DNA of 64,000 nucleotides, taken from contig NZ_JNJC01000001.1 of assembly GCF_000701525.1 (NCBI RefSeq), positions 1 through 64,000 on the forward strand, written 5' to 3'. Position 1 is the stretch's first letter, and every line of letters begins with the position of its first letter. Shown in pieces: positions 6,919-48,606 of this stretch. Under the pieces are notes generated by a model. That model saw nothing but the letters and a program-made list of their open reading frames with translations, did not search any database and was not told where the DNA came from. A program made the position numbers and the translations under genes. The DNA comes from Mesoplasma grammopterae ATCC 49580. Its GTDB lineage: Bacteria; Bacillota_I; Bacilli_A; Mycoplasmatales; Mycoplasmataceae.

Positions 6919-6972
6919 AAAACACTTGAATTTGGAATTTTTCCCAAATTCAAGTGTTTTTTTTTTTTTTTT
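6919..6972 (+). terminator. Hairpin with T16 tract between divergent genes
   Basis: A 15-bp perfect stem (AACACTTGAATTTGG and its complement, 6921-6957) with an 8-nt loop is followed on the plus strand by T16 (6957-6972). No plus-strand gene lies upstream, so this is not an ordinary terminator. It sits between the divergent ABC ATPase (start 6825) and the GH123-like gene (start 7060). A TAAAAT -10-like box lies about 35 bp downstream of the T tract. Confidence 0.7.
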
Positions 6973-18037: not shown

Positions 18038-20677
18038 CTAATAAGAATTTATAAATTCTTTAATTTTAAAAAGTTGAACATAAACACTATCTTTTTTACT
18101 TTCAAAACTTTTCATTGAAATTTGATCATTTAATGAGTTTGTTCATTTATATTCAATATTTGATTTTATGTCATTATTTCATTTAATATAATTTTTTATT
18201 TTTAATGAATCCGACTCTGATATTTCTCCGCTTTGTTCAAGAGTCATTAATTTTCAAACCATTTTTATTCCGCTTTGAATATTCAATAATCTTAAACTAT
18301 CGTAAATATTTTCTGAATCACCAGGATAAATTAATGAACCATCTGCTGGTTCATGAGGATTACCAATAATATAACCATCTAATGAAATATCATTTGTATA
18401 AAAACCATCTAATTGAAATCTGTCAAAACCATTAGTTCCATATTTATATGCCATTAAAGTAGACCAAGCTAAATCTCCCGGTACAGATGATAAATATCCA
18501 CCTGGAAAGTTTTGTCATGAAGAATAAAATCTTGTGTTTTTTCTTTGTTCATGACGTTTTTCAACCAGACTTCTAAAATTATCTACATCTTGTTGTGTGC
18601 CCTTTTCATAGTTAAAAATATATTCTCTTTGCTGAAGAGTTATTTCATCATACGGACTAAATTTATCTTCTAGTTCTTTTGTATCATAGTAATTATCTAC
18701 CTTAAATTGTCAACCAATATAAGCATGTGTTTTAATTAAATTTTCTTTGTCATATTTTTTCAAAATTTCAATTACTTGTTCGTTAATTTCTTGTTTAGTT
18801 TCATCAAATGAATAATAAAGATCGATATTTGAATAAGCATCATAGTATTTTGATGTTGGTGTGTTTTTTATGTAATTAATGTGCTCAATTAAGTTTTTGG
18901 TAAGTAAAGGTATTATAGTATCTCTAAATTGGTTTCAATCTTCAGATGTATTTCCATTGCTATCAATAAATTTATTTTTGTAAGTTACATTTGCTAAAAC
19001 TTTTTGATCAACTGTATTACCATCGCTATTATTAATTGATTCATCATTTGTTTTGTAATAAAAATTAAAAGGATTAGCATTTCTGGCCACAATTGGCATG
19101 AATATTTTTTTGTAACCACTTTCATTTAAAAAATTCATATATTCATCGAAAATATCAAAGTTTATTTCTCAAGTAAGATCATTTTCAAAAACATCTGATA
19201 ATTTATTTTTATCCATATCGCCTCAAAAATCCTCAACATTTTTTGCTGTATTATTAGTTGCTATATACTTTAAATAACTAAGACCAAAATTTGGTGTATA
19301 TCCATATTTTGCATTATTCTCGCTTTGCAATTTAGTAAATTCTTTACCATATTTATTATTTAAACTTCTATTTTCATTTTCGTTATCTTCCTTAACCATA
19401 AAATCATGTAATGTATTTTTAGGATTATTTAGCCTTGAGTAGTTTTTTTCTGGATTTGAAAGTACTGATGTTACTGAATCTGATTTAAAAGTTGGTTTTT
19501 CATATACTGATTTGTTATATTTGTTTGTGTATTCAGCGTAAGAAGAAATTGTTGGATTATTGAAATAAATTTGAATTTTGTCTGTCGTGTTAACTTGTCC
19601 ATTTATTTTATTAGCTGCCTTATTAGAAACAAAGTATGAATCAGATTGTATTAACAAGCTTACATGTTTATTATTTGGATCTTTTCTAAAAATTTGACCT
19701 AAATTAGCTTCATCTTGTCATCTTATAATTTTTGTGTCTGAAGGTAAACTTGGATTAAAACATTTTATTATTTCTAATATTTCTTTTTCAGAATTAAAAT
19801 ATAAATTTTCATATTCTTTTTCACTTAAAACAATATTCTTTTTAGTTACAACCTTATCAAATTGTTTTAATACAAATTTTTGAGATGACGTAGGAAATGC
19901 CATTGAATCTGAACTAATTGAATTTATTTCACTATTTTTTCTATCTATAGTTCTTTCAATTACATCTACTTGTTGATTAAAATAAATACTTTGTTCATGC
20001 CCGTTTGCATTAAAAATTAATTTGAAATTTATATTTCTTGTCCCTATTTTTGATTGATTATTTGTTTTAATAGTTATCATAATTGGTTGAAAATCAAACT
20101 TTATAGAATCTAGTTCATCAGTTGCTATTTCATCATAATTATATAAAATAGCTTTGGGAGATGCAGGATTATATTTATTATTAACTGTATTTTTTGCTTT
20201 AATTGGTTTAACGAAGTTTGCGCTAACTTCCAAATCATCCATATCATTTAAAACTTCTATTTTTAAATCTGTTATCTCATCTTCATTATTTTCTTTAAAT
20301 AATACAAGTTGTGAAGATTGTGTATCATTTTTTCATAATTTTAATTCTTTTTGATTTACAGGCGTTCTTTTTACGTTTTCTAGATCACCATTAAATTTAA
20401 CTACTTCATTTTCTAAAGTATTTCCAATATCTTCACCATCAACAAGGTATGTTGCATAATTAAACTCAGGTTTTCCAAAAAAATAATCAATATATTCATT
20501 ATTTGATGCACTTTTAGTTTTAAATTTATTTTTAGGACCATACTGGTAATTATTTTCTCAAAACTTTTCTTTTTGGTTATTCTTATCCTCTATATTTTTT
20601 ACACCACAAGAAACCATGTAAAAAAGTGGTGTTACAGTTAAAATTGATATTGTTAAAATGTTTATTATTTTTTTCAT
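18038..20677 (-). CDS. GH123/DUF4091-like lipoprotein
   Basis: The 879-aa prolipoprotein starts at 20677 after AGAGGAAAAG and has lipobox YMVSC near residue 24. A long N-terminal beta-rich region is followed by a DUF4091/GH123-type catalytic half: YYSFDETKQ carries the DE pair at D625-E626, and a terminal GDGSLIYPG-type block reads DGSLIYPGDSENIYDSLRLLN. The protein probably acts on host or plant amino-sugar glycans at the cell surface; substrate is inference. It lies 27 bp upstream of the GH53 pseudogene in the same direction. It is a distant paralog of the gene at 7060-9354 but has a different anchor (lipid versus helix). Confidence 0.78.
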
Positions 20678-21996: not shown

Positions 21997-22046
21997 AAAA
22001 AAAAAAAAAAAAAGCAAAATTTTGGAAAAAATTCTCAAAATTTTGC
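21997..22046 (-). terminator. Hairpin terminator with T17 tract
   Basis: An 11-bp stem GCAAAATTTTG / CAAAATTTTGC (22014-22046) is followed by 17 T on the minus strand (21997-22013). It terminates the membrane-protein gene ending at 22065, and the T tract lies 96 bp upstream of the spiralin-like start. Confidence 0.85.
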
Positions 22047-24667: not shown

Positions 24668-24698
24668 TAAAAAAGAATCTTACTTGCATGTAAGATTC
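24668..24698 (-). terminator. Terminator of HU-like/XRE operon
   Basis: The 9-bp stem GAATCTTAC/GTAAGATTC (24675-24698) with loop TTGCAT is followed by seven T on the minus strand. Confidence 0.88.
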
Positions 24699-24728
24699 CT
24701 AAAATATAATTTATTTTCTAAGTACAAA

Positions 24729-24956
24729 TTAAGTCTTTAATAATTCTTGAGGTGTTGTTTCAAGTCCCTCAATAAGTTTTTGTAAAATTTTAATTGTTAT
24801 ATTTCTTCTTCCTCTTTCAAAATCAGAAATATAATTTTTTGAAATGCCACATCTAAAGCCTAATTCTTCTTGAGTTAAACCTTTGTGCGATCTAATCTTT
24901 CTTAGATTAGTTGCAATAATCAAAATTAAATCTTCTTCTCCATTATATTTTTTCAT
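24729..24956 (-). CDS. XRE/Cro-CI family DNA-binding regulator
   Basis: The 75-aa protein is almost entirely one HTH_XRE domain (about 12-68): LRKIRSHKGLTQEELGFRCG, then ISKNYISDFERGRRNITI. It resembles small phage repressors and restriction-modification C proteins. Its start overlaps the end of the membrane-anchored HU-like gene by 14 bp, so the two are translated together. Regulation of that operon or its neighbours is plausible but not shown. Confidence 0.88.
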   Translation of the reverse strand: MKKYNGEEDLILIIATNLRKIRSHKGLTQEELGFRCGISKNYISDFERGRRNITIKILQKLIEGLETTPQELLKT

Positions 24957-26070
24957 TATTTAAACTTTCTCTTAAACCTTTTAATGACTTAAATTTGATT
25001 GTTTTACGTGATGGTACCATTTTTAATTTGCCAGTTTTCATATCTTTCATTGTTGTTTCATTAACAAAAACTGTTGAAAACTTAGCAAAATTATTAATTT
25101 TAATTTCTGAACCTTCATTAACTAAATTATTTTCCATCAATTCAAATAAACTATCAACAATTTTTTTAATTTTAACTTTTGTCAATTTATTTTTATTATT
25201 TGAAAAAATTGAATTAACCAAATCATTTTTTGTAACCTTATTTTTTCTTATCACGGGCTTTTTTTGATTTTTTTTACCCGCCTCAACAATATCAATATTT
25301 TCTGATTGTTTTTTTTCATTAATTTGATTTTTATTTTCAGTAATTTTAATTGTTGTATCTGTTGAAACATCTTTAAAATTAAGATATTGATATTCAACTT
25401 TTCTTAATTCGTTACCTATTTTTTTCATAAATAAAATTAATTCTTTTTTAGTCATTTCTTCCAAAATTACATCATCAACTTTAATGTTGTTTAAAATAGC
25501 GTAATTTCTAATTTTATAAGCATTTTTAACTAACTCACTTAAATTTTCTTTGATTAAAACTGATCCGTCTGTTTTTGCTCTTTGTTGTAACAAAGTCAAA
25601 TCGTAATCGTTTTCATTATTAATTTCTTCAAAAAATGTTTTATCTTCCTCAAAATGAGGATATAAATCAATATCAGGATTTTCAACTTCTAAAACTATTT
25701 CAGTTTCAACTTTTTTATTTTTTATTGAAGCTTCAACATCTTTTTTTGGTTTATATGATTTTTTGTTTTTAAATTTAATAATTAGAACAATTCAAGTAAG
25801 TACTAAAATAGGTAAAACTATTAGCAAAATAATATTAGATATATAATCAATTAAATTTGGCAAACTTAAATCTGTTGGGGGAATTAATCCAATAGTTTTG
25901 AATACATTTAAAATATCCATATTATTTACTAATGCATTTACTATTTTCATTAAAAAGAAAATAACTATTGTAATTAATACAGAAAATTCCAAGCTTACTT
26001 TAATTACATTATTTTTTGATTTTTTTAAAAAATTATTTTTTTGCTTTATATTTTTTTCTTGTTTTTCCAT
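24943..26070 (-). CDS. Membrane-anchored HU/IHF-like DNA-binding protein
   Basis: The 375-aa fusion has a Lys/Asn-rich N-terminus, transmembrane helices at about 23-46 and 75-99, and a basic then acidic linker (100-275). The C-terminal Bac_DNA_binding (HU) domain occupies about 279-371. That domain starts VTKNDLVNSI and contains GSEIKINNFAKFSTV and a DNA-arm region with GKLKMVPSRKTIKFK, as in HU (GFGTF ... F.PGK). HU proteins are normally about 90-aa soluble dimers. This one would tether DNA to the inner face of the membrane. It overlaps an XRE regulator and follows a lipoprotein/ABC gene set after a terminator. One UGA in the second helix links the parts in a single frame. Confidence 0.82.
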
Positions 26071-26147: not shown

Positions 26148-26384
26148 TTATAAATTTATTCGATTTATAATATCTTCTAAATCATTAATCAATTTATTTA
26201 ATTGTGAGTTAATCATTTCAGCATCTGATATAGAAATTCTAAATTCACCTAATTTAAGTAAATTTTTATTAGAACTAACTTCATTAATTAAATTTTTACT
26301 TAATTCTTTTTTAAATTTAATTAGATCTTCTAAATTAGTTTCTACATCATGACCACTAAAAAATTTTTTAATTTGTTCTGTCAT
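26148..26384 (-). CDS. Small helical protein, end of ABC/lipoprotein operon
   Basis: The 78-aa soluble protein starts MTEQIKKFFSGHDVET and is predicted to be mostly alpha-helical (two long amphipathic helices, the last NSQLNKLINDLEDIINRI). It has no signal peptide. It lies 19 bp after a lipoprotein gene and before a strong hairpin, so it is the promoter-distal gene of the set that begins at 36673. Family not recognised. Confidence 0.72.
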   Translation of the reverse strand: MTEQIKKFFSGHDVETNLEDLIKFKKELSKNLINEVSSNKNLLKLGEFRISISDAEMINSQLNKLINDLEDIINRINL

Positions 26385-26403
26385 AATCTTTTATCTTTCT
26401 ATT

Positions 26404-27993
26404 TTAATCAACTACAGCAATTTGTTGAAGTAGAACGTTTAATGTTCTATTTGCAGCTTTATATTTATCATTACTGTCTTTTGTTAAAAATACTGCGTAA
26501 TAACTTATATTTTGAGTATTTTTAATAGTTGTTCTAGTCAATGCGTTACTTGTAGAAACAAACTCGTCTAATGTTTTAGTTTGTCCTAAAACGCTTTCAA
26601 TATTATTATTTAAGTTTTCTTGAGTTTTATCAAAGAATAAAACTTCATCAACTTTGAATAAATTTTCACTTGCATCAGAACCATAGTTAAATGCAGTTGT
26701 ATTTGTAAAGTATTCAGTATTAACAAATTTACTTATTTTTTCATCTTTATCATCACCAGTAAAAATATCTAGACTTTCAACAAATTGTTTTTGTTGAGCT
26801 TTATCATCTTCTTGGTTTCATTCATAAGTAATTTGTTGATTTGATAAATATTCCTTTTGAATTTTACTTGCATTAACACTTGTATCAAATTGAATAAATT
26901 GTGGTTCAATATATTTTTCATCTTTACTTGTCAAGACATGTCATTTTAAAGGATTTGATTGTATTTTTAAAATTTCAATTTCTGTTTTTATTTTATATTG
27001 TTCACTTTCAATTACTTCTTTTGAAAATTCATAACCAACATTTGCTTTTAAGTTGACAATAACTTGATTTGTTCAATAAATTGAATCAATATTTGCTCCA
27101 TTTTCAGTTATTACTGAATTAGTAACACTTTCAATTGCAATTTGATCATTTGCTAGAATTTCTTTTTGTTGAGTTAAAAGCTTATCTTTAAAATCATTAT
27201 AATCGCTAAAATTTTCAGTTTTAATTCAATTATTAATTGATTCTATTGTTTCAGTTATAACAGTATCTTCTATAATAACTGGATCTACAATTGTTCCCTC
27301 ACATGTAAATTCCTTATCTTTCTCAGCAACATCATCATCAAATTGATAGTATTCAGAATCATTATTTTTAATTCCAATTGTTCCACTTATTTTAAATTTT
27401 GTAAGTTTTGGTATTGATGAATCAGTTGGTTGATTTGAATCAAGAATTGTGACTTTAACAGTTTTAAAAACTAAGCCTTCAGCTGGAGTACCCGGAATAT
27501 TTGCATTTGGTACAAATGTATTTTTAACAGTATTTTCACTTTTAAAATAAATTTTATCTAAGAAATTTTGTAATCCTATTATAGTTGTGGTTAATTCTTC
27601 TTTAGTTATTTTTTTCTTAGGTGCTGGTTTGTTTCCACCAAAATTATAAATTAAAGTTATTGAACCTGTATATTTGTAACCATTTTTTGAATTACCATTA
27701 CCATTAAATAAAATGCTTTGTTGTTTATTGGTAATTGTTCCTTCTTTTATTTCATCGCTAGCTTTCACACTAATTCCACCAGCTACATCGACTTTTTGAT
27801 TAACTAGTTCTGCTTCCAGATCATCATTAGTTCAAGGTTCTTGATCATCTTTTTTACTATGTAATATTGTAGTCAAAAATCTTTCAATTGAATCAATTTT
27901 TTGTTTTTCTACTTTACTAGAACATGAGACAGCAATTGTTGATGCTGAACTTGTAACTACTAAAGATGATAGCACTAATAATAATTTTTTCAT
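26404..27993 (-). CDS. Lipoprotein with WT..L modules
   Basis: The 529-aa prolipoprotein has signal MKKLLLVLSSLVVTSSAST and lipobox IAVSC. After the Cys comes a segment reading IERFLTTILHSKKD...WTNDDLEAEL and a GGISV strand. This is the same module as in the 1-1790 protein. Later parts contain two more W-containing repeat units (INNWIKTENFSDYNDF). It lies 28 bp after another lipoprotein gene and 19 bp before the 78-aa gene, inside the ABC/lipoprotein operon. Surface location is inferred from the lipobox. Confidence 0.8.
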
Positions 27994-28021
27994 TTTCAGC
28001 TTCCTCTCCTATTTTTGATTA

Positions 28022-30028
28022 TTAAACTCTTTCAATAAATGTGTATCTACCTAATGAACTAAAGTCAAATTCTGAGTCTTCTCCAAAAGTAACATCAAAT
28101 AAGTTTGAAGAAATTCCAAATTTTAGTGCTGAGTTACGTGTTGTTTGCATTGCTAACCCTTTCATTAAAGGAGTTCCATTGTTTCCAGTATAATTGCTAT
28201 CTTGTATATATGCACTTCTGTATTTTCTAAATCCAGTTTTACCAGCATCTGAATATGTAAAGTTCATGTATGTAACACCTGACATTTTTGCAATTAAGTT
28301 TTGCTCCTTAATTTGTTGAGCTTCAATTCCTGTGTTTAAGCTTAATGCATTTGCGAAATTACTTGAATTAATTTGTCCATTAACTGCTCCAGTTTCTTTT
28401 AAGTAATCTCAAATATTGAAATCAGTTCCGTCTTCTTTTTTAACACCTGTTTCACCTGACATTTTAAATTTATTATTTAATTGTTGACGTGATGCATTTG
28501 GTGATGTTCAAATGTCACTTTCTTGTATTCCGTAGAATGTTTGGAACACATTTGAGATTTGCTCAATTCCTTTATAATAAGAGTTAAAGATTTTTGATTG
28601 AGTTGAATCTGTTGTTTCAGATACAGCTGTTGCAGTGTTATCAATTGCAATTGAATATGTGAAACCAACGTCACTTAATCTTTGTGTGTAACCATTATTT
28701 AATGAAATAGTTAATCCTTTAATTGTCATTGTTTCACTTGAAATTGACATAGCTAATAGATCATCTACTTTTTCATCTTTTTCAACATTTGTTGATTTTT
28801 CTGTTCTTTTTGTATATTCACTTACAATTTTTGAATTATATTCGCTTAATGAATTTTTTCATTGTCCATCAATCGCTTCATATAAAGTTTCATCTCCAGC
28901 TACTTTTTTACCTTCTAATTGAATGCTTCCAGTAGTTTTTATTTTACCAAAGAATGTATTTCAAGCTGTTCAATCATTATAACCATAATTTATGTTAATT
29001 TTACCTGTATTATCAAAATGGTTTGTTTGTTCATGTCTAATGATATCGTTTTCATTATAATAACTAACTTTAATAGCACTTACAACAGGTGACCCATTTG
29101 TAAAGTATTTATTTTTTACAGTAGATGTCATTGTTTTAGCTAAGTTTTCATTATATTTATTAATTGCTGATTTATACACATCTGTATTAGCAGTTAATAA
29201 ATCTTGTGTTGTTAAACTTGGTTCTAATGCTTTTAATGTTGCAAAGTCAACATAAACATTTGAATTTGCCTCTTTCAACATATCACCAGCTAATTCATTA
29301 CTAATTTTGTTAATTGAAGCAATAATTTCGCCATTATCTGAAACAGTAATAACAATTGTTCCTTTTACAGCTTTTGTAACTGTTGCTTGTTCAGCATCTT
29401 TATATCTATAAGTTGAAGAGAAATTTAAATCAATACTTGAAATAAATCCTTCTCCGTCGTTACCAGTAGCACCATAAGTCATTTCAGCATCTTCATAATC
29501 AAATTTAAGATCATCAATTCATTTTGAACCGAAACCTCCGATTAAAACACTGTATGTTGAAGTACTGATAGCATTTCTTAAATCAGCCATTGCTTTAGCT
29601 GGGCTTAATAGTGATTCAACATTTGATGTTAAATCTTTTTGTTGGTCAGATGTTAAAACATCATAAAACTTAACTGCTTGGTCATCTGCGTATGTTGAAA
29701 TTTTAGATTTTGTTTCACCGCTACCTGTACCAGCTGATGCTTGATCATAAATTGATTTTAAATTATCTTTTTGAAAGAAAATTAAACCATTTTTTGATGC
29801 TTCTGTATCTAATAATGTTGATCTTGTTGCCATTGGAGTTGAAACAATTGTTGAAAATTTAGATTGAACTTCAGATTCAAATTGTTTAATTAATTGTCTT
29901 ATTGCTTCTTTTTCCTTTTCATTTGGATCAATTGTGGGGTCTGTAGTGCCATTCGAACATGAAATAACAGCCATTGATGAAGTACCAACTACAGCGAATG
30001 ATGATAATATTAATAATAATTTTTTCAT
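28022..30028 (-). CDS. Large lipoprotein of ABC/coiled-coil operon (paralog 2)
   Basis: The 668-aa prolipoprotein has signal [19 protein letters not shown] and lipobox AVISC. It shares a core with the lipoprotein at 31920-33791. One block reads [14 protein letters not shown] ... [15 protein letters not shown] here and KWFEGLSYDFSN ... IVITISDQNDIIENL there, at the same relative position. It is therefore a paralog within one operon, separated by the permease gene. It may belong to the Mollicutes paralogous (MOLPALP-type) lipoproteins, which I could not confirm. It is probably the extracellular partner of the neighbouring ABC permease. Confidence 0.8.
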
Positions 30029-30069
30029 TTTTGTATTTTTTCCTTTTTTTCATTTTTTTTAAAATTTTT

Positions 30070-31884
30070 TTAGAAATCAAATTTTCTAAATTTATATAAA
30101 GCAATTGAAAAACTCAATGTGCTTATTCCAAATAAAATAACCAAATAATATCAAGGTTTAACATAATTTGATGTAGTATTTTTTTCAATCATATTAGTAG
30201 AAGTAAGTTTTATATCATACTCTGGATATCCTAAAAATAAATTTTTTTGATCTTCTAGATAAATCTTTGAAAAAGAATTTGGAGAAAATCAAATATCATT
30301 ATTGTAGAATCCTAAGTTTTTGGTATATACCATTCACAACCCACTATACAAGTTGAAATAGGATAGGCCACGCATCATGCTTCTGCCTTTAGTATAACTA
30401 TTTCAGTCTCCTGAAGTTTTAGATACCGCATTTGAAGACATAATTATGTAATTACTTGAATATTTAATAAAATATTCTTCAATGACTCTAGCTGAGTACA
30501 TTAAATTAAAGTTTAATTGTTTTTTAACTAAATTATTTGCATTTGTAAATCTAAATCCATCATTTCGGATTCCCGCAACTGAATATTCGTAAAATGAAAC
30601 AATATCTTGTTTTTTCAAAGCGTAAGTAACTTTATTTTCTTTTATTTCTTCCTTAGTTGGATCAAGCTTTTCTAAATAACTTGTCTGAATCCCTGAATCT
30701 AAAAATAAGAAATCATAAAATAAATCATATTTTTCAAATTGAAGATCATTGCTAAAATATTTGTTAATTTCATTTGTAAAACTTCTAAATTCTATTAGAG
30801 TTTTTTTTGCATTTTGATCTACTGTTTTAATAATTAATTCATCTAATTGTTCGTTTGTTATAAAAGTGTCTTTTAAGGTTATTTGAATATTAAATTTATC
30901 ATTAATTTTTCAAGTATCTGGAACAGATGCATCTCTAAGGGGTTTTGAGAATAAATCTAAATTTGTTTCTGTTATAACAACTGGATTAGCATTTATAAGT
31001 CCTAAATCTTTTCACATTTGCGTTCTATAATTTATATTTTTTGTGTTATGAAATTGATCAGTCACCATTTCTTTTGAAAGAAAATAGTTGTAAACGTATT
31101 TGGATAAATGGGGATATTTAATATTTCCTTCGTTCACATGATCATATAAACTGTACGCGTCATATATATCGTTTAATTGAAAAATATCACCGCTTGTAAA
31201 TTGTACATAATAACTTTTTTCATTTGCCTTTATAAAAGACATGGGGATATTTGCTATAAATGATAATGCCAGTAATAATGTACAAATAATTGTAGTAGTT
31301 TGCAACGTAAATATAAAAATTAAGAACGTAATAAAGTTAATTAAAAAGAATGTTGCAAGTAAACAATATATAACATACATCGATGTCATTCTAAGTATAA
31401 ATATGTCATAATGAAACAATGTAAATGATGCATAAAATATATTAATAATAATAAAACTCATTAAAATATTTACAGCACAAATTAAAATAATTAATAAATA
31501 TTGAGCTATAAAAAACTTTGTTCTGCTTACTTGATTAGTTAAAACAATATATGTTGTTTTATCTTCAAAATTCTTACTAAAGAAAAATTGAATCATTCTT
31601 AAAATAAATACAAACATTAAACAACAAACAAAAAATAATATATAAAAGTTGAATATTACAACTTGGGAACTTCCAGATTTTACAAAAGCTAATATAATCC
31701 CAACTAAAATGGAAATAATAATAGTTGCTAAATTTAAAATATAAAATAACTTTTCTTTTAATAAACTTTTAAAACTAAATTTCATTAATTTAACAAAAGG
31801 AATTCTCCTATATTTAATAAGCTTTTCTTTTATAAAATTTTGCAAAGGTTTTGTTTTCTTTTTTTCATAATTTTCTTCTACCAT
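30070..31884 (-). CDS. ABC permease with large extracellular domain
   Basis: The 604-aa protein starts at ATG 31884, which is preceded by AAAGGAGGTG (the ATG at 31905 overlaps that site and is rejected). It has a basic cytosolic N-terminus (about 1-40) and six hydrophobic helices within 45-225. An extramembrane domain of about 330 residues follows, then a last helix (about 572-594) and a short basic tail KFRKFDF. This plan resembles an ABC-2 or MacB/FtsX-like mechanotransmission permease. It is sandwiched between two paralogous lipoproteins and downstream of the ABC ATPase-coiled-coil gene, its likely motor. Substrate unknown. Confidence 0.78.
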
Positions 31885-31919
31885 AGTACCTTCACCTCCT
31901 TTCAATGTAAATCAATAAA

Positions 31920-33791
31920 TTAAATAGATTCAATTAGTATCCTTTCGAATCAATAAAATTTTTCTGATTTAATTACAAAATTTAGGTTTAAAAATGATAA
32001 ATTAAAATCGACTGAAAGGTTACTTGATCCTTCTTTAAATTTTTTAAAAATAAGTTGATTATTATTCATTTCAATTATTGGAATATTTTGTAACTCTTCA
32101 TTATTGTTAAACTGAAAATGAAATGTTGAAGTATTGGTTTTATTTAAAAAACTTTGACGTTCTGATTCTGCAGAATAAGTTAGGTTTTTATTATTTAGTA
32201 AACTTAGCTGAGCATTTACATCTGAAATACTTTTGTCAGTTGTAGTTGCTGCTCTAGATTGCAAAATATTTGAATTTTTCATACTGATTAATTGTTGATT
32301 GTCTGACAAAGACATTCATGTTGTTTTAGTTGTTCCATAATTTTCTTGAAAAACTTGTAGCGCACTTATTGTATTTTGATAAATTGCTTTAAAAATTGGG
32401 TCCTGATTAGGTAAAACTATTTTAGTTTTAACTATTTCATTTTCATTATTTAAATAACTGTCGTTAAAGTTATTAGCTGACACTCCTACATAATATGAAA
32501 TTGGGCTAATTGGGTGATAATAATTAAATTCATCAAAATATAAACAAAAGTTATCTAAAGTAATTTCTCCGTAATTAACAAGTGAATCCGAAGCAATATC
32601 AAGTTCATTATTAGCTTTGCTTTGAAAATCACTTACTCATGTTTTATACTCTTTACTTAAATATGCATAAATATCTTGATTTCCTTTTACGAATTTATTT
32701 TCTAAGACAATTGTGTCGTCTGTTATTAGTTCACTAAATACTGTTTTGAATAAATTTATGTTGTTTGTATTAATTGTTGAAACTGTATCATCAATAATTA
32801 ATTCGTTAGACCCATATTTATTTTGACGTGGATTGAAATTATCAATTTTATTAATAGACTTAAAATTCTTAAATCTATTTTCATCTTTAAAAGTAAAAAC
32901 ATAACTTTGTATAGGTTTACTTGAATTAGTATTATGCTCAAAAATGTAAGTTAATAAACTTTTTTCAAATTTATCAAATTTAAATATATTTTCAAAATCA
33001 TTTTTTGATAAATTAAATAATCTTGAATAATCATTTATTCTAAGATCATAAGCATCAAATCAAGCTCACTCAAACTTATTTTTAATAAGGTTTTCTCTCA
33101 GTTCACTCGTTGTAAACTTTAAATTTTCAATTATGTCATTTTGATCAGAAATCGTTATTACTATATCTTCATGGTAATTATTTTTAATTATATTTTTATT
33201 AATGTCAGTGTACTGATAAGTGAAAACTAAACTTAAATTGACATTTGCTATATATTTTTTGTTTTCCTTATCAAAATCTAAATATCCAAAATCTATGTTA
33301 CTAAAATCATAAGATAATCCTTCAAATCATTTTTGATCTTCATTTTTAAATTCCAAAATACTTGAATAAAAATCAAATTCAGGTTTCATTGAATCTAAAA
33401 TTGATTCTTCTAATTTACTACTTTTTGTAATTTTATTTAAATCATTAGTTAGAGCATCTTTTTCTCTTTGAGATAAAAGTTCATAATTTGAATTTATATT
33501 TTGATTTTGTTTACGCAAATTTATTTCTTGTAAATTAGACTGAGTAAAAAAATCAAGATTTTTATTTTGCTGCATTGTTTGATCAATATAAATAATTTCA
33601 TTTTGTTGTTTAGCTAATGCATCATGAAATTTTTTTTCAACTTCTTGCTCAAAAGATTCACCAAGAACAAAGTAGTTATAGATTGGTTTGTATTCTTGTT
33701 TATAATCTTTTGGCTTTTGACCACAAGCAGTAGTTACTAAACCAAAACCTAGAATAAATGTAGAGGCAATTGGTAATATTTTTTTTAACAT
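31920..33791 (-). CDS. Large lipoprotein of ABC/coiled-coil operon (paralog 1)
   Basis: The 623-aa prolipoprotein has signal MLKKILPIASTFILGFGLV and lipobox TTAC. It starts 11 bp after the stop of the ABC ATPase-coiled-coil gene, with TAGGAGG-like ribosome binding inside the gap (cctcctaaaat on the plus strand). It shares domain order with the 28022-30028 protein (see there). The mature part is Asn/Asp/Phe-rich with several aromatic clusters, such as KFEWAWFDAYDL. A cell-surface component coupled to the ABC permease is the likely role. Confidence 0.8.
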
Positions 33792-33802
33792 TTTAGGAGG
33801 AT

Positions 33803-36673
33803 TTATTTGTTAAACTTTTGCATTAGCAATACTTCATTTAATTTATTTTTTTCTTCTTGGATTTCACGTCTAATTCTTTCAAGTTCTAAAACATTTTCAC
33901 GTTGTTTCATTTCATTGTCAAATTTTGCTAGCTTTTGATTCATTTCTTTTTCAAATGCCATTTCTTTTCTTAACTGTTCAAAATATTCCTTTTCTTTATT
34001 TAAATCAGCTTTAATTTTTTCCAATTCCTGATCTTTTAATAAAATTGAATTTTGTTGATTTCACATTGGCTGTTCCATATTATTTGTAAAATTATTTCAA
34101 CCTTGTTGAACATTTGCATATCTTTTAATATTTTGCTGCTCATTCATTTCGTATTTTAATTTCTCTAATTCTTCTTTTAATTTTAAGATTTCAAAATCTG
34201 ATTCTTTAATACTTGTTGAGTCTTCATTAATTAAATTAGCTTTTGTAGCTATATTGTTTTGAATTGCATTAATTTCACTATATTGGCTCTCTAATTGTTT
34301 TTGTCTTGATTGAGTTGAAATATTTTCGGCTTCAATTTTAGCTAATACTGCACTTTGTGTCTCTTTAAATCTTTTTAATTCTTCTTCAAGTTCCGCTTTT
34401 GATTGATTAACTTCATTTGATTCGATTTGAAATTGTGATATAAATTCTTTTAATTCGGAAATACTATTTTTAATTGAATCTTTTTCGGCAAGAGCTGTCT
34501 TATTAAATTCATCATGATATTCTTTGAATTCTTTAATTTTTGCTAAATATTCATTTTTTGATTCTTGAACAATTTGTGTTTCTGCGCTAATGTTTTCAAC
34601 ATATGATTTTAAATCTATAAGTTTACTTGTAAATTCAGCTTTAATTGAATCAATTTCTTCATATTCTGTAATTGTTGCTACAGCAATGTCTTCTTGTAAT
34701 TTTTTCAATTCATCAAGTTTTATATTTAATTCAAGTTTTTTCATTTCAACTTCTTCTTGCTCTAAATCAACTTCAATCAAGAATTTTTCTCTGCTTTGTT
34801 TTAAAGCAGATAGATCTTTATCTAATGCATCTCTGGAATTATTAATTTCATCATTCTCAATTTCAATTTGAGTTAAATAACTTTTAAAATCTTTAATTTC
34901 TTCTTGAATGATTTCTCTTTGAACAGCAACCAAGTCTTTGAATTGATTTTCAAATTCTTTAAACTCATCTATTTTTGATTCAATTTCAGAAGTTAATGAA
35001 TTTTCAGATTCAATCTTAACTTTTTCAATGTAAATTTTTAAATCTTCAAGTTTATTCGAGAATTCAGTTTTCACTAGATTAATTTGCTCATACTCATTTG
35101 CTGAAATAGAAGCAATTTCATCTTGTAATGCCTTCAATTCATCAATTTTGATTTGTAAATCAGTTTTTTTAAATTCTAAATTTTCAGTTTCAACTTCTGT
35201 TTGCTGTAAAAGTACTTTTAAGTTGCTTGCTTCATCATCAAATGTTGTTTTTACTTGATGAATGATTTCTGATTCCAATTTAATTTTTGCAAAGTAGTCT
35301 TTTAAGTCATCAATGTTTAAATCAATTTCATTTTTTTGTTCAGTAACAATTTTATTTATCTCTAATTTTAAATTTTTAAGTTCTTGCACTTTATCAAAAA
35401 AGTCATTTTTAATTGTATTAATTTCTGTTGCTGTTAAAACGTCATCGCTTACATAACTCAGATCTTTTAAAACTAATGCTTCATGAGTTTCAGTTGATGA
35501 TTCAGATAAATTTTCACTTATTAATAAAAGATCACTTGATAAACCAACTTTGATTTCATCTTCTTTTAAATTTAAAATGTTTTTATATTTATCTTCTATT
35601 TTGTTTAAGAAGTCTAATGCTTTGTCTAAATCTATTGACTTATTTGAACTATCAATTACAAATTCTTTTAAAGGCTCATATTTTGGTTTATGGGGTTTTT
35701 CTTTATCTTCTAATGCTTTTGTAATTGCATCCATATTAATAGCTTGTGCTATAACATCTTTTGGTTGTAAATGATTTTTTTCTAAAATAGCTAAAGCATC
35801 ATTAAATGCTTGATACTCATTTAAGCCAACAACTAATGAGTTAGTACTTAAGTCAAAACTAAATGTCAAAATATTATGTTGATTTAAAAGTTTTTCAACC
35901 TCTGCTAGCACAACGTCTTTCTCAAATGAAATGTTTATTTTTTTGTATAAGTTTAATTCAGATTTTGATCCAGAAAATAATAATTTACCTTTTTCTAAAA
36001 TTACAAAATTTTCAATTGTATTATAAACTTCATCAATGTTGTGAACAGTTAATATTATTGTGCTATTAAATTCTTCTTTAAATTCTTTTAGTATTTTATA
36101 AGACTGCCCTCTTCATTTAGAGTCTAAGTTTGCACCTGGCTCATCTAAAATAAGAATTTCAGGTTCTTTAATAAAACATAAGATTAAATTCATACGATTT
36201 TTCATTCCTCATGAAAATTCATTAAGAGATTTATCTTTAGATGTTCATAAGTCAAATTTTTTTAATCAATATTCAATTCTTGATTTCACTAATGTTTTAT
36301 CTAAACCCATAACATTACACATATTGTATAAAAAGTCATAAGCTGTAATTGAATATAATGAAAAATCCATTTGAGAATAAAACCCTACATTAGAGTTATT
36401 TTCAATTGAACTACTTTTTTTACGTTCTTTACCATTAATATAGATATTTCCATCATAATTCAAAGTAGCTCCAAGTAATGAATTTAAAAATACACTCTTA
36501 CCTGATCCACTACTTCCAAGTAATGCTGTAACTTTTCCTTTTTCTATATTAAAAGAAAATGGGCCTATATTTATGTCCTTAAATTTTTTATGAAAATGGT
36601 CTACCATCACAGCATTATTAGAATTAAAATTTTCTAAAATAACACGTTTTGACTTTAAAATATTTTTTTCCAT
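33803..36673 (-). CDS. ABC ATPase fused to long repeated coiled coil
   Basis: The 956-aa protein begins with a full ABC ATPase: Walker A GSSGSGKS at 53-60, Q-loop YSQMD at 99-103, divergent signature FSWGMKNR at 153-160, Walker B ILILDEP at 173-179 and H211. A C-terminal ATPase subdomain follows to about 320. From about 415 to 840 comes a continuous Glu/Lys-rich coiled coil with a repeat of about 143 residues: KIDELKALQDEIA near 508 and KLDELKKLQEDIA near 651, with DLKDYFAKIKLE, DFKSYLTQIEIE and ELKEFISQFQIE at about 456, 595 and 741. A Trp/Asn hinge (859-880) and a second coiled coil (880-945) end the protein. ABC importers and exporters do not normally carry such a rod; the family is unrecognised. 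First gene of the operon. Confidence 0.85.
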
Positions 36674-36754: not shown

Positions 36755-36770
36755 AAAAAAAAAAAAAAAA
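36755..36770 (-). repeat. T16 homopolymer upstream of ABC-coiled-coil gene
   Basis: Sixteen T on the minus strand, ending 81 bp upstream of the start at 36673. No hairpin precedes it, so it is not a terminator tail. A TAAAAA -10-like box lies 34 bp downstream of its end. Confidence 0.85.
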
Positions 36771-48587: not shown

Positions 48588-48606
48588 TTTTTTTTTTTTT
48601 TTTTTT
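48588..48606 (-). repeat. A19 homopolymer just upstream of a -10 box
   Basis: Nineteen A on the minus strand, then CAA, then TACAAT, which lies about 46 bp before the start at 48535. It is the only one of the five tracts that reads A in the direction of its gene. It would lie between -35 and -10. Confidence 0.85.

Follow-up and report, generated by a model that had tools for sequence, protein, structure and literature searches.

ABC-2 systems are mostly exporters, and their permeases have six transmembrane (TM) segments with a coupling motif between TM2 and TM3. The type VII systems MacB, LolCDE, and FtsEX also act on the envelope by means of ATP and an extracytoplasmic domain, but have four TM segments, the first two of which flank the outer domain. 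SMC and Rad50 proteins combine an ABC ATPase with a long coiled coil, which separates the Walker A half from the Walker B half. In mycoplasmas, surface genes of the Vlp and Vmc type are phase-variable and carry a simple-sequence tract in the promoter region. For lantibiotic immunity, the outer-face lipoprotein LanI is found beside the ABC exporter LanFEG, which contains two permeases of about 250 aa without a large outer domain (PMC5786555). Here, we describe an operon in the window, the whole 64,000-nucleotide stretch of Mesoplasma grammopterae ATCC 49580 DNA that was analysed. It encodes a previously undescribed form of a known type of transporter, the core of which is genuine, conserved, and found widely among related bacteria.

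Under genetic code 4, six minus-strand ORFs of 956, 623, 604, 668, 529, and 78 aa are present (Table 1), separated according to their coordinates by 11, 35, 41, 28, and 19 bp. Lengths and spacers match the initial annotation, which had described six genes head to tail, with spacers of 11–41 bp and no terminator between them. The limits given there (26148–36673) are too narrow, as two more genes precede the next hairpin, one for a two-TM protein of 375 aa that carries an HU-like domain, the other for a 75-aa HTH protein. The former starts 77 bp past the 78-aa gene, and the latter overlaps it by 14 bp. A terminator-like hairpin on the minus strand (36863–36840) precedes the operon, another closes it (24700–24673), and no terminator-like site was found on this strand between the two; with hairpins at both ends and none inside, the HU-like and HTH genes are therefore probably part of the unit. 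Spacing and hairpins thus support a single transcription unit of eight genes, reaching from the T16-tract promoter region to the terminator-like hairpin. Every gene of the unit is intact and evolves under purifying selection (dN/dS 0.04–0.49); the ATPase and the TM parts of the permease have the lowest values (0.04–0.12), and LP2, LP3, and the HU-like protein have the highest (0.21–0.49).

Table 1. Features of the operon, in the order of transcription (positions in the window).
Feature	Position	Strand	Basis
T16 tract upstream of the ATPase start, context CTTG-T16-GTGACAATTAACTC (A16 on the + strand)	36755..36770	-	sequence
ABC-2 type ATPase (~1–330) with ~600-residue coiled coil (~376–951), signature FSWGMKNR	33803..36673	-	Pfam, motifs, heptads
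Lipoprotein LP1, 623 aa, of a ~600-aa permease-linked family	31920..33791	-	lipobox Cys23, HMM family
Permease of 604 aa with six TM and a 363-residue outer domain (TM5–TM6)	30070..31884	-	topology, relatives
Lipoprotein LP2, 668 aa, LP1 paralog	28022..30028	-	sequence
Lipoprotein LP3, 529 aa, separate family	26404..27993	-	full length only in this operon type
78-aa acidic helical protein	26148..26384	-	only in genomes with fused-coil operon
Two-TM protein of 375 aa with a conserved helical domain and an HU-like domain at the C-terminus	24943..26070	-	Pfam Bac_DNA_binding 1.9e-17
XRE/HTH_3 regulator, 75 aa	24729..24956	-	HTH_3 2.6e-16
Terminator-like hairpin, unit end	24673..24700	-	hairpin prediction

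The permease has TM segments at residues 49–67, 76–94, 129–147, 171–189, 199–217, and 581–599, a basic N-terminus, and a large loop at 218–580; this extramembrane domain had been recognised before, with a slightly shorter length of 330 residues. Between TM2 and TM3 lies FEDKTTYIVLTNQVSR, which we take to be the ABC-2 coupling motif. No Pfam model matched the permease itself and no model in the family libraries used names its family; among its relatives, 4 of 30 aligned family members match ABC2_membrane_2, the full-length homolog L119 passes the ABC2_membrane_4 cut-off (36.7 vs. 27), and the profile-linked permeases L115 and L116 pass that of ABC2_membrane_2. By motif, topology, and the Pfam matches of its relatives, we assign the permease to the ABC-2 superfamily. 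The system shares with those of ABC2_membrane_2 and ABC2_membrane_4 proteins the six TM segments, a TM2–TM3 stretch reading FEDKT...QVSR, and the ATPase class, and differs in the extra TM5–TM6 domain of ~360 residues, the dedicated lipoprotein family, and the coiled-coil tail. Because its topology is that of a six-TM ABC-2 protein, it lacks the MacB/FtsX/LolCE layout, and the MacB/FtsEX likeness proposed earlier is not upheld; an extracytoplasmic domain and ATP-driven envelope action are shared with these systems, while topology and family differ. Structure prediction of the permease reached a pLDDT of 36 and the fold search was uninformative.

The ATPase (Pfam ABC_tran 3.3e-24) contains all motifs of an ABC transporter ATPase in order, namely Walker A (GSSGSGKS53), Q-loop (YSQMD99), signature (FSWGMKNR153), Walker B (LILDEP174), and H-loop (TVHNI209), and is nearest by sequence to ATPases of the DrrA/ABCA type (ABC-2 exporters). 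The signature is degenerate yet conserved, being the same in most of the family, and its tryptophan is encoded by TGA. The ABC motor with a giant coiled coil, as annotated initially, is seen in these motifs and in heptad-like segments with a hydrophobic periodicity of 3.5 residues, and the protein contains an internal duplication (142 columns, 36% identity, score 275 vs. 77 ± 10 for shuffled sequences). As in SMC and Rad50, an ABC ATPase is joined to a long coiled coil, but here the coil, found only beyond residue ~305, follows a contiguous ABC domain in which Walker A and Walker B are not separated by it.

The fused coil is found in the g1 copies of the operon and in G059, while the ATPases of g11 and g12 have a shorter tail, mostly without a dominant 3.5-residue period. 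At five loci of these sister lineages (L038, L039, L040, L064, and L059) a separate coil protein of one family is encoded in the operon. In six genomes tested, matches to this family were confined to G058 and G055, the latter with one copy in each of two operons; no match was found in the fused-coil genomes G007, G012, and G059, nor at the threshold used in G057, which has the weak profile member L059. Fused and separate coils are thus complementary in five of the six genomes. No homology was detectable between the two coil types, and a coil partner may therefore have been gained more than once, a pattern that is suggestive. Judged by composition alone, and counted before the SMC protein was taken out, permease operons were not significantly enriched in separate coil genes (p 0.07). 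A 983-aa coil-rich neighbour in L052 was rejected as a partner, as it is the housekeeping SMC protein.

The surface lipoproteins named in the initial annotation are supported, as is the paralogy of the second to the first: LP1 and LP2 match over their full length (E 6e-10 after removal of the signal peptides). Their family has 46 members, collected with an HMM built without signal peptides; iterative growth with them drifted. No known fold was found with the lipoprotein profile, for which a binding-protein match stayed at chance level (E 0.75), and structure prediction of LP2 gave a pLDDT of 41 and an uninformative fold search. Homology of the lipoproteins to the permease outer domain, considered for a shared DIW.SPN motif, was rejected after hhalign found nothing. 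Full-length LP3 and an intact 78-aa gene are absent from the operon-less genomes among the 60 family genomes sampled; full-length LP3 also occurs in g11 and g12. Other proteins of G059, G057, and G003 contain ~90-residue repeats that correspond to the N-terminal ~115 residues of LP3; in G003 these stand in tandem at C1:111296–112993. With anti-phage defence models, only generic ATPase matches and a weak match of the 78-aa protein to CasR were obtained.

The basic HU-like domain (pI 10) belongs to the HU/IHF type by its match to PF00216 (Table 1) and by profile matches to solved HU proteins (best 2e-7), while its aligned arm reads VNETTMKDMKTG in place of R...NPQTG and lacks the usual R and NP residues. 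The gene is linked to the operon in the g1 and G059 copies, with loss of the HU-like domain in L037, and the HTH gene adjoins it also in L031, L033, L034, and L036. A second membrane HU protein is encoded in the same genome outside the operon (L117:1658–2737; G000:C1:265501–269000). The linker of this protein is rich in Lys and Ala, and its C-terminal HU domain keeps an NPSTGE arm and is a better HU domain (PF00216 3.3e-24) than that of the operon protein.

Of the eight fused-coil copies examined (g1 and G059), seven have the T16 tract before the ATPase gene, with mostly the same flanks; the remaining copy, L032, is without it. Tracts of T16 and T20 precede L038 and L040, and in the cassettes of genus g8 a T16–T19 tract precedes the lipoprotein gene. 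Tracts of T15–T20 occur at 17 of 125 upstream-side genes of permease operons compared to 11 of 495 genes elsewhere (Fisher p 1.7e-6, relatedness ignored), and the opposite tract showed no enrichment. Judged from the sequence, the tract probably makes expression of the operon phase variable; the near-exact retention of 16 T argues for a constrained length, and in the single assemblies examined no difference in length was seen within a strain, both of which count against phase switching. A simple-sequence promoter tract is shared with the Vlp and Vmc genes, but here it stands in front of a transporter operon, mostly with a length of 16–17 across species. Elsewhere in the window, T16–T17 tracts at 1900–1915, 6957–6972, and 21997–22013 lie upstream of secreted or lipoprotein genes (a 596-aa frame at the window edge and genes of 764 and 214 aa), and a T19 tract at 48588–48606 is oriented against the neighbouring genes. 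Another lipoprotein of the window (879 aa, 18038–20677) contains a glycoside hydrolase 123 catalytic domain (PF13320 7.7e-10).

Among 60 genomes of the GTDB family of the window, the permease is matched in 38; a single genome has as many as 17 matches, of which some are fragments. Full-length homologs found by profile search reach other families of the order, and in most loci, including those of other families, the permease adjoins this ATPase. No LP-family gene was detected beside the permease-ATPase pairs of other families of the order, and this family is therefore not in the oldest core. Within the GTDB family it shares many operons with the permease, and in g8 lipoprotein, permease, and ATPase form tandem cassettes. 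Only the permease, the ATPase, and the LP1/LP2 family recur widely across regions. The conserved core is thus the ATPase with the six-TM ABC-2 permease, joined within the GTDB family by the LP family, while the fused coil, LP3, and the 78-aa and HU-like proteins are additions of a single lineage; the genes for the last two are found in the g1 copies and G059. The sole permease and the only two LP-family genes of the window genome all lie inside the operon. The synteny on which the initial annotation had hung its proposal is strict inside the lineage of the window, while outside it the six genes are not always together. It would have given up a novel machine for lack of synteny in relatives or for membership of ATPase and permease in a known transporter family, and this applies by half, since synteny outside the lineage is incomplete and both motor and permease fall within a known superfamily.

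The chromosomal site varies between genomes: other lipoprotein genes occupy it in G011 and G012 (L100 and L101 vs. the window), and in G012 and G007 the operon is located elsewhere. The g1 genome G011 has no permease match anywhere and other genes at the corresponding site, whereas the absence in G010 is probably an artefact, as the ATPase and LP1 are present and followed by a long stop-free stretch. The operon is duplicated in G009 (L034/L035) and G007 (L031/L032); the 78-aa gene is broken in the second copy of G009, and G007 has permease fragments at 404 kb. Scans of genome contigs gave M. seiffertii as the sole match, and a viral-contig scan and a plasmid search gave none.

We tentatively favour a lipoprotein-assisted ABC-2 extruder with a motor positioned by a rod. 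A permease homodimer with two ATPases would use ATP to drive cargo out of or off the membrane, and the permease outer domain with LP1 and LP2 on the outer face would receive, bind, or pass on this cargo. In this lineage, the motor tails, each ~85 nm long when fully extended, would pair within the dimer into a rod that places the complex inside the cell, where the membrane-anchored HU-like protein may be its inner partner, and the T-tract before the first gene would switch expression. The fast evolution of LP2 and LP3, with the ATPase and TM parts the slowest, is expected of an outward specificity part. The arrangement may be likened to LanI and LanFEG, in which an ABC exporter also stands beside an outer-face lipoprotein, a likeness of the lipoproteins by role, but LanFEG has two short permeases, short motors, and no large outer domain (PMC5786555).

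That the ATPase stroke acts through the outer domain to release or reshape lipoproteins, as in MacB, LolCDE, or FtsEX and as proposed initially, would fit the presence of dedicated lipoproteins and a large outer domain in one operon; it is nevertheless unlikely, given the ABC-2 topology and family of the permease and the lack of homology between the lipoproteins and the outer domain. It is rather unlikely, too, that the lipoproteins themselves are cargo or display products, placed by the ABC part and varied by the promoter tract. Their fast evolution and tandem amplification, and the T-tracts before other surface-protein genes of the window, point this way, but they carry ordinary lipoprotein signals and should therefore be exported by the general pathway.

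A link between envelope and DNA, in which the coiled-coil motor and the membrane HU-like protein tether the nucleoid or position the chromosome, would give a role to the long coil and to the basic HU-like domain on a two-TM protein in the g1 and G059 copies. We consider it improbable, because this domain is absent in L037 and has an atypical arm, another membrane HU protein (L117) is encoded in the genome, the lipoproteins and the permease are left unexplained, and the core occurs without rod and HU in most genomes. Equally improbable is the broader proposal that one ATP motor couples surface lipoproteins, permease, ~85-nm rod, and HU-like protein to the nucleoid under an on/off switch formed by the T-tract. 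Least probable of all is an importer with LP1 and LP2 as solute-binding proteins; it agrees with a layout of lipoprotein, permease, and ATPase genes, but the lipoprotein profile gave no binding-protein fold above chance, the ATPase most resembles those of ABC-2 exporters and ABCA proteins, and ABC-2 systems mostly export.

The extruder reading would thus concern a module of lipoprotein, permease, and ATPase for which the literature search found no description, and for whose permease and lipoprotein families the libraries used hold no described member. The module, which these libraries do not name, is represented by as many as 17 permease matches in one genome, complete or partial. Its carriers are wall-less and have small genomes, yet the module is amplified, which suggests that selection at the host-facing surface is strong. 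A motor with a long rod, either its own or encoded by a neighbouring gene, would make the placement of membrane machines in wall-less cells testable.
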